Source: Melioribacter roseus (GTDB lineage: Bacteria; Bacteroidota; Ignavibacteria; Ignavibacteriales; Melioribacteraceae). Taken from it: 64,000 nucleotides of DNA. Both the position numbers and the translations under genes were made by a program. Shown here one piece after another: positions 25,123 through 33,565 of this stretch (position 1 is its first letter; each line of letters begins with the position of its first letter). The notes beneath the pieces are model-generated. The model searched no databases. It was not told where the DNA came from and saw only the letters and a program-made list of their open reading frames with translations. The stretch covers positions 21,561-85,560 of the forward strand of contig DYLP01000006.1 in the NCBI GenBank assembly GCA_020722005.1, written 5' to 3'.

Positions 25123-26106
25123 TTAAGGAACTTCCACTCTGTTAAGTATTGTCTGAATAATTTTTTCAGAAGTAATTTCTTCGGCTTCAGCTTCGTAAGT
25201 AACTGCAATTCTGTGCCTGAGAACGTCGTAGCAAATAGAACGTACGTCTTCGGGAATTACGTATCCTCTCCTTCTAATGAAAGCCATTGCTCTTGCGCCT
25301 AAAGAGAGATTAATAGTAGCTCTTGGAGAAGCGCCGTAACTAATCAGGTCGGTGAGTTCGTCCAGACCGTAATCTTTTGGATTTCTTGTGGCAAATACAA
25401 TATCGAGTATATATTTTTCGACTTTTTCATCCATATAAACTTCGTGTACAAGATTTCGTGCGCGCAGAATGTCGTCAGGATTTATAACCTGTTTGACTTC
25501 GGGTAAGTTATTAGACGAATTCAGTTTCATTATCTTTAGTTCTTCTTCTCTGGAAGGATATGTAATTTTAACTTTCAGCATGAAACGGTCGACCTGTGCT
25601 TCGGGCAACGGATATGTTCCTTCCTGTTCAATCGGGTTTTGAGTAGCCAGAACGAGAAACGGCTCATCAAGTTTGAATGTCGTATCACCAATCGTCACCT
25701 GGCGTTCTTGCATGGCTTCAAGCAATGCACTTTGAACTTTAGCAGGCGCTCGATTAATTTCGTCGGCAAGTATAAAATTAGAAAATACAGGTCCTTTTTT
25801 AATTGCAAAGTTGCCATCTTTTTGATTGTAAATTAACGTACCGACAAGATCTGCAGGTAATAAATCCGGTGTGAATTGAATTCTTTGAAATTTTGCTTTC
25901 ATTGATGATGCAAGAGTTTTTATGGCGAGGGTTTTTGCCAGACCGGGAACACCTTCTAAGAGTACATGTCCATTGCTCAATAATCCAACAACCAGCCGTT
26001 CGAGCATATATTTTTGACCGACAATTACTTTGCCGACCTCATTAAATAGAATGTCAATGAACTCGCTTTCACGTCTGATTTTTTCGTTTAATGCCGAAAT
26101 GTCCAA
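25123..26106 (-). CDS. MoxR-family AAA+ ATPase
   Basis: LLEGVPGLAKTLAIKTLA, FILADEINRAPAKVQSALLEAMQERQVTIGD, LATQNPIEQEGTYPLPEAQVDRFM. Confidence 0.96.
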   Translation of the reverse strand: MDISALNEKIRRESEFIDILFNEVGKVIVGQKYMLERLVVGLLSNGHVLLEGVPGLAKTLAIKTLASSMKAKFQRIQFTPDLLPADLVGTLIYNQKDGNFAIKKGPVFSNFILADEINRAPAKVQSALLEAMQERQVTIGDTTFKLDEPFLVLATQNPIEQEGTYPLPEAQVDRFMLKVKITYPSREEELKIMKLNSSNNLPEVKQVINPDDILRARNLVHEVYMDEKVEKYILDIVFATRNPKDYGLDELTDLISYGASPRATINLSLGARAMAFIRRRGYVIPEDVRSICYDVLRHRIAVTYEAEAEEITSEKIIQTILNRVEVP

Positions 26107-26283
26107 TTTGCCACCTCAATATTTTTTAAAATCGTACGGTTTAACAAAACTTGTATATAAAAGTTTCTATAAATTTTATGAAGTGTAAATATAAAAATAT
26201 TCAAAATGAGTAGTGCAATTGAAATCCAAGTAATAGAATATTTATAAATTTATTAAATTGAGAGTCAATAAAAGAGGTTTCTA

Positions 26284-26943
26284 ATGAAAAAATTAGTGGC
26301 TCTTTTTCTAATATTAATTTTCGGATGTGCACCACAACCGAAAATTGAATACAAGGAATATAAGGACAAACTGGTCGAAACTGCCCGACGGTGTTATGAC
26401 CGTCAGCTTTTCTGGGGTTCGGGAGGTGATATCAGTGTTAAGGTCCCCGGCACAAACAAGTTTATTGTTAAATCGACTGGCTATTCACTCGGTTACCTCG
26501 ATTATAATAAAATAACTACTATGACTTTAGACAATGATGTGATTGAAGGAAAAACTCCTTCGCACGAAGCTCCTATTCACGGTAACATCTACAAAATTAG
26601 AAAAGATGTGGGTGCAATTCTTCATATGCACGCTCCTTATTCAACTGCGTGGGCAACCGCTGGAATGAAAGTACCTCCAGTAACTCAACAATCCGTTAAA
26701 CTACTCGCAAAATGTGGCATCGTTAAATACTATCCAGTGGGATCAAATGAGCTAATAGATGAAATTACTAATTTATATAAAGACGAAGTTATAAAAGTAG
26801 TTTTCATGGAAAACCACGGCGTATTCGTCGTCGGCAAAGATCTGGATGAACTGCTAAACAATGCTGAATTCGTCGAAAATACAGCTCGTATAGCTTATTT
26901 GTTAAAAGCAATTGGTACACCGAAGGAGTTCAAATTCGAGTAG
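26284..26943 (+). CDS. Predicted lipoprotein with class II aldolase/adducin domain
   Basis: MKKLVALFLILIFGC lipoprotein signal; SHEAPIH, ILHMHAPYSTAWA, ENHGVFVVGKDL retain class II aldolase residues; upstream AGAGG Shine-Dalgarno-like motif. Confidence 0.85.
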   Translation: MKKLVALFLILIFGCAPQPKIEYKEYKDKLVETARRCYDRQLFWGSGGDISVKVPGTNKFIVKSTGYSLGYLDYNKITTMTLDNDVIEGKTPSHEAPIHGNIYKIRKDVGAILHMHAPYSTAWATAGMKVPPVTQQSVKLLAKCGIVKYYPVGSNELIDEITNLYKDEVIKVVFMENHGVFVVGKDLDELLNNAEFVENTARIAYLLKAIGTPKEFKFE

Positions 26944-32671: not shown

Positions 32672-33565
32672 ATGAACACCAAAAACAGCCTGCTCAGTTC
32701 AGCTATGCTGCTCATTTTGCTTGCGCTGCTTAGTTGTTCTTCTGCAAATCTAATAAAAAAAGAAGAAAAAGATGCCGTTGCCATAAAAGTAATGACATTT
32801 AATATACGATATGGCAGCGCTGAAGACGGAATTAACAACTGGGACAATCGAAAAGAAGTTGCTTTCGATGTCATAAGAAATTATTATCCAGATTTGTTAG
32901 GAATGCAGGAGGTACTAAAATTTCAGCTGGATGAAACACTCGATCAATTTCCGTATTATGATTACGTAGGAGTTGGTAGAGATGATGGCAAAACAGGTGG
33001 AGAATATTCACCCTTGTTATATTTGAGAGAGCGATTTATAGTTGATACTTGCGGAACATTCTGGTTCTCTGATACTCCCGAAATTCCAGGTTCGAAATCG
33101 TGGGGAAATGAAATTACTAGAATAAGTAGCTGGGCTCGGCTTTTCGACAAATTTACCGGAAATGTAATTGAAATTTACAATCTGCATCTTGACCACAAAT
33201 CGAAGGACTCGAGAATTAAAAGCGCTCGGTTGTTGCTTAAAAAAATTAAGCCGAATATTCCCACTATAATAACTGGAGATTTCAACAGTTCCGAAGACGA
33301 GGAAACTATAAAATTAATATCAGACAGCGGCTTTAAGGACACCTATCGTTTTATCTATGCAAATTCAAGCCACGAGGGGACATATCATCGTTTTGTAGGC
33401 GACGATACAGGGGATAAAATAGATTTTATTTTCGTTTCAAATCATTTCAAAATACTGGATGCTGAGATAATTAAAACATACAGATTGACAGGCGATAAGA
33501 AGCAATATCCTTCCGATCATTTTCCTGTTGTAGCCGAAGTAGCAATAGATGACCGGGTGAAATAA
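32672..33565 (+). CDS. Endonuclease/exonuclease/phosphatase family lipoprotein
   Basis: Lipobox ALLSCSS; MTFNIRYGSAEDGINNWDNRKE, LGMQEVL, TIITGDFNSSEDE, YPSDHFPVVAEV. Confidence 0.93.
   Translation: MNTKNSLLSSAMLLILLALLSCSSANLIKKEEKDAVAIKVMTFNIRYGSAEDGINNWDNRKEVAFDVIRNYYPDLLGMQEVLKFQLDETLDQFPYYDYVGVGRDDGKTGGEYSPLLYLRERFIVDTCGTFWFSDTPEIPGSKSWGNEITRISSWARLFDKFTGNVIEIYNLHLDHKSKDSRIKSARLLLKKIKPNIPTIITGDFNSSEDEETIKLISDSGFKDTYRFIYANSSHEGTYHRFVGDDTGDKIDFIFVSNHFKILDAEIIKTYRLTGDKKQYPSDHFPVVAEVAIDDRVK

Follow-up and report, generated by a model that had tools for sequence, protein, structure and literature searches.

A predicted exported lipoprotein of the class II aldolase fold with altered phosphate-site residues in Melioribacter roseus

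The gene at 26284..26943 (+ strand) of the window, which is the whole 64,000-nucleotide stretch of Melioribacter roseus DNA analysed here, encodes a class II aldolase/adducin-fold protein with a lipoprotein signal (hereafter the aldolase lipoprotein). Its product is probably exported and held by a lipid anchor, and probably works as a metal lyase, epimerase or decarboxylase on a non-phosphorylated substrate. The product has 219 amino acids (N-terminus MKKLVALFLILIFGCAPQ), and the gene is supported by its open reading frame, by a match to PF00596 (E 8.6e-43) and by an overall dN/dS of 0.044 with its ortholog. Using hmmscan, the Aldolase_II domain was placed at residues 29–205 (26368..26898, +), with a score of 146.8 bits against a cut-off of 22.2 and coverage of profile positions 2–183 of 183. 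The NCBIfam equivalog cut-offs were all missed, the best score being that of FucA_Meth (117.5 versus 250), followed by OtnC (115.3 versus 250) and fucA (43.5 versus 400). An AlphaFold2 model built from a two-sequence input (pTM 0.63, mean pLDDT 63, low at residues 1–20) gave as its best Foldseek PDB matches DrdA, AraD, FucA, YgbL, HMPD decarboxylase, pyruvic oxime dioxygenase (POD), TqaM, NovR and adducin, every one with the class II aldolase fold. The profile match makes the fold secure, whereas the model is not good enough to judge the geometry of the pocket.

The first 14 residues, MKKLVALFLILIFG (26284..26325, +), form a signal sequence that is kept as MKKIILLFLILIFG in a sister species, and they are followed by Cys15 (26326..26328, +), the putative lipid anchor, in the lipobox I-F-G-Cys15. 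The N-terminus thus reads MKK-LVALFLILIFG-C, with a basic n-region, a hydrophobic h-region and a lipobox with the invariant cysteine, all conserved in the ortholog. The n-region is short and its Lys-Lys pair is among the conserved features. The lipobox matches a PS51257-like pattern that also fits seven other open reading frames of the window. Both Lgt (E 1.1e-74) and LspA (E 1.5e-35) are encoded in the genome, and the catalytic domain begins within ∼10–15 residues of the Cys15 anchor. A likely ribosome-binding site, AGAGG (26273..26277, +), was read directly 6 nt upstream of the ATG, with AAGG at the equivalent position in the sister genome. Among residues 1–55 the only in-frame ATG, GTG or TTG codons are the ATG of residue 1 and a GTG at residue 5. 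Since both precede the hydrophobic stretch, no ordinary start yields a cytoplasmic product in which the domain is complete. An extracytoplasmic location is well supported by the sequence, and Cys15 would be lipidated. No Bacteroidota-type surface-export signal was seen by eye after Cys15, so that a periplasm-facing anchor appears at least as likely as a surface one.

The mature domain contains two cysteines, Cys37 (26392..26394, +) and Cys144 (26713..26715, +), which are the only ones after Cys15. Both are kept in the ortholog and absent from 57 relatives, all 57 of which have valine or isoleucine at position 144. This paired gain suggests a disulfide formed in an oxidising compartment. Signal peptides may occur in some class II aldolases of proteobacteria. 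Our literature search found no relevant exported, periplasmic or lipoprotein class II aldolase of the same fold, and the sequence searches made found no exported PF00596-family member other than this genus pair. No signal peptide was present in the six GHVS-type members inspected from a plasmid collection, which were retrieved with a consensus query.

A single ortholog was found, in the sister species, whose genome is the only other one from the genus. It is 87% identical over residues 1–219, has the N-terminus MKKIILLFLILIFGCTAQ and adjoins moxR, the same place as in the window. The sets searched, which overlap, comprised 58 relatives, 391 genomes of the class, 396 of the phylum and all 79 available from the family. 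All other homologs share at most ∼33% identity, none of those with inspected N-termini has a signal peptide, and they were counted as separate lineages rather than as the same gene. A close-relative scan of 84,980 species, with one genome per species, gave one remote homolog without a signal, the plasmid collection gave matches only below 60% identity, and viral contigs scanned with four class II aldolase queries gave no relatives. A scan of 297 phylum genomes for the pattern GDIxVK[VI]PG matched only the two genus members. The sequence-only reading had predicted an exported lipoprotein and had proposed to look for a conserved lipobox in homologs, naming homologs that start internally without the hydrophobic N-terminus as evidence against export. 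At the level of sequence the prediction is borne out, because signal and lipobox are kept in the only ortholog, which has the hydrophobic N-terminus, and the window copy has no usable downstream start. Between the two orthologs dN/dS was 0.035 in the body; for the signal, where there are few sites, it was ∼0.15. With dS as high as ∼1.6, these values indicate that selection has maintained the gene over a considerable time. In the tree the ortholog pair forms a long isolated branch, separate from the class II aldolases that belong to the family itself. A grouping with OtnC was not accepted, OtnC and the ortholog pair both being on long branches.

The aldolase lipoprotein gene is, as had been described from the sequence, a single gene transcribed divergently from the moxR/bat operon, whose moxR starts at 26106 on the − strand. 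It has no pathway neighbours at the window locus, and no kinase adjoins it among the window open reading frames. The genes downstream encode a lipocalin, a DUF1028 protein and an FKBP isomerase, each with a likely export signal at its N-terminus as judged by eye. The lipocalin-like gene (PF08212; 27345–27641, −) encodes 98 amino acids, being shortened by a frame change after an A run, and an intact 172-residue copy is present in the sister species; the shortening could be genuine gene loss or an artefact of assembly. Further along, 32672–33565 (+) encodes a likely lipoprotein enzyme that by eye is endonuclease/exonuclease/phosphatase-like, with the lipobox LLSC, and is kept in the sister species. 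An AbgT transporter gene lies ∼40 nt behind the aldolase lipoprotein gene in the sister genome (L059:11290–12810). No AbgT is encoded anywhere in the genome to which the window belongs, and the transporter was for that reason rejected as a functional partner.

Two further class II aldolases are encoded in the genome. One, on contig C57 (L001), has a C-terminal helical extension, adjoins an acetate-kinase-like gene and lies near three BMC shell genes, an arrangement that resembles the PVM-like microcompartment locus reported from Melioribacter roseus (PMC4207490). The other is AraD-like and lies beside a kinase. With two ordinary class II aldolases present, cytoplasmic sugar-phosphate cleavage and epimerisation are served by enzymes other than the aldolase lipoprotein. 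Elsewhere, within this order and also in a genome of the Bacillota, proteins of ∼430–440 residues (L027, L034) carry two tandem class II aldolase domains; in the second domain of L034 the catalytic Glu motif is lost, as are some of the metal His.

Alignment with E. coli FucA, AraD and YgbL places the metal ligands at His114-Met-His116 (26623..26631, +; FucA His92 and His94) and His178 (26815..26817, +; FucA His155), and the equivalent of the FucA base Glu73 at Glu95 (26566..26568, +). These residues lie in the motifs ILHMHAP (His114, His116), ENHG (His178) and SHEAPIH (Glu95), as the sequence-only reading had assigned them. Its description of the active-site residues as intact holds for the metal ligands and Glu95 but not for the phosphate-binding and acid positions, which are changed. 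Gln135-Gln136 (26686..26691, +) replaces the Pro-Glu of most relatives (Pro in 55 of 57, Glu in 49 of 57), and residue 69 is Leu where 49 of the 57 have Lys. FucA (PDB 1fua) shares with the aldolase lipoprotein the fold, the three metal His, the base Glu and three of five phosphate-site residues. It differs in being cytoplasmic and without a signal, at ∼25% identity; its Asn29, Ser72 and Tyr113' are replaced in the aldolase lipoprotein, where its C-terminal tail (Phe206, Tyr209) is missing.

In FucA the phosphate is contacted by Asn29, Thr43, Gly44, Ser71 and Ser72, with Glu73 and Tyr113' as catalytic residues (PMC11841055). The corresponding residues here are Asp49, Thr65, Gly66, Ser93 and His94, so that Thr65, Gly66 and Ser93 are retained and two positions are changed: Asp49 (26428..26430, +) stands for Asn29 and His94 (26563..26565, +) for Ser72. 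Both changes occur in the two orthologs and in none of the 57 relatives, 55 of which have Asn at the first position and 55 Ser or Thr at the second. The Ser72 position is occupied by Lys in E. coli YgbL, which is a putative 3-oxo-tetronate-4-phosphate enzyme, and His94 alone does not therefore rule out phosphate; Asp49 is the stronger evidence. The earlier suggestion of a non-phosphorylated substrate thus gains from two replacements unique to the ortholog pair but is weakened by the three positions kept.

The top PDB sequence matches (E 1e-17) are OtnC/YgbL, the 3-oxo-tetronate-4-phosphate decarboxylases (6vop, 6voq), which have a similar GSxG...TGxxLGxLD stretch and a short C-terminus. They differ in their ∼27% identity and cytoplasmic location, and the OtnK kinase that neighbours them is missing at the aldolase lipoprotein gene; with the OtnC score below its cut-off as well, the protein was not assigned to OtnC. 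HMPD decarboxylase of Mesorhizobium loti (Mlr6791, 2z7b) has the same fold and metal His, acts on a non-phosphorylated substrate and has its phosphate-site positions replaced (GHIS and YLE). It belongs, however, to another subfamily (GHVS/YLE motifs), carries other replacements and has no known lipoprotein signal. POD of Alcaligenes faecalis (8il8) likewise shares the fold, the His triad and a loss of phosphate-site residues, and its substrate is non-phosphorylated, but it is an Fe(II) oxygenase and presumably a soluble protein of the cytoplasm (PMC5216522, PMC11841055).

The resemblance to POD raises the alternative that the exported lipoprotein is a non-haem iron oxygenase like POD, TqaM and NovR, which combine the aldolase fold with a His triad. 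The fold search matches these three about as well as FucA, and none of the five FucA phosphate contacts is kept in POD (PMC11841055). POD is, however, recognised by the lack of a Glu73 equivalent in its sequence and by an essential N-terminal helix of ∼30 residues ahead of the domain (PMC5216522, PMC11841055), whereas Glu95 is present here, the domain begins at residue 29 of the precursor, so that after Cys15 only ∼10–15 mature residues precede it, and the sequence is closer to YgbL, DrdA and FucA than to POD. An oxygenase is accordingly quite improbable. An exported protein without catalysis, which uses the aldolase fold to bind a ligand or to serve as a scaffold, would account for the changed acid positions and the partly changed phosphate site, and adducin, one of the fold matches, is a precedent for such a loss. 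The retention of all three metal His and the Glu under strong purifying selection argues against it, and we regard it as unlikely.

A further possibility is that the exported enzyme still acts on a phosphorylated substrate, such as periplasmic organophosphates, with the phosphate held by His94, Ser93, Thr65 and Gly66. In its favour, the phosphate site retains three of its five residues and YgbL has Lys where His94 stands, but Asp49 puts a negative charge where Asn29 binds phosphate, a residue seen in no relative, and periplasms are usually poor in sugar phosphates. We give this reading only a slight chance. That the protein is a class II aldolase of the usual cytoplasmic kind, whose hydrophobic N-terminus is a mis-called start or goes unprocessed, would fit the apparently cytoplasmic nature of all relatives with inspected N-termini, the short n-region and a TTG codon within the aldolase domain of the sister-species ortholog. 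Against this stand the conserved Lys-Lys n-region and lipobox, the window copy's lack of a usable downstream start and the two new cysteines, unlike anything in the cytoplasmic relatives, which make it very improbable indeed.

We therefore favour an exported, lipid-anchored enzyme and propose the following mechanism. The Sec lipoprotein signal would be cleaved before Cys15, which would be lipidated to hold the protein on a membrane outside the cytoplasm. By the family rule it would form a homotetramer with a divalent metal bound by His114, His116 and His178 and with Glu95 as the base. The pocket appears rebuilt by the changes Asn29 to Asp49, Ser72 to His94, Lys to Leu at 69 and Pro-Glu to Gln-Gln at 135–136, and because the pocket that binds phosphate in FucA is rebuilt, the substrate is most likely non-phosphorylated, perhaps a sugar, a sugar acid or a hydroxy-carbonyl compound that the enzyme encounters outside the cytoplasm. 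Its chemistry would run through a metal-stabilised enediolate, in a retro-aldol cleavage, an epimerisation or a decarboxylation. We infer lipidation, location, metal, oligomer, reaction and substrate alike.

More tentatively, the protein may represent a lineage-specific extracytoplasmic class II aldolase that is membrane-anchored and disulfide-stabilised and whose pocket now takes a free substrate in place of sugar phosphates, a fuller picture that we consider possible but stop short of calling likely. The characterised class II aldolases (FucA, RhaD, AraD, OtnC) are intracellular and grip the phosphate of their substrates. An export-adapted member in which these contacts are altered would show, in a natural protein, this fold retuned for free substrates, of interest for enzyme evolution, and solved FucA mutants at the same site (N29L/S71A, N29Q and S71Q, among the Foldseek PDB matches) offer a direct comparison. 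Aldolases that do not depend on phosphorylated donors such as DHAP are also of practical interest. If the proposal is true, metal-dependent aldol, epimerase or decarboxylase chemistry would join the cell-envelope metabolism of this genus.
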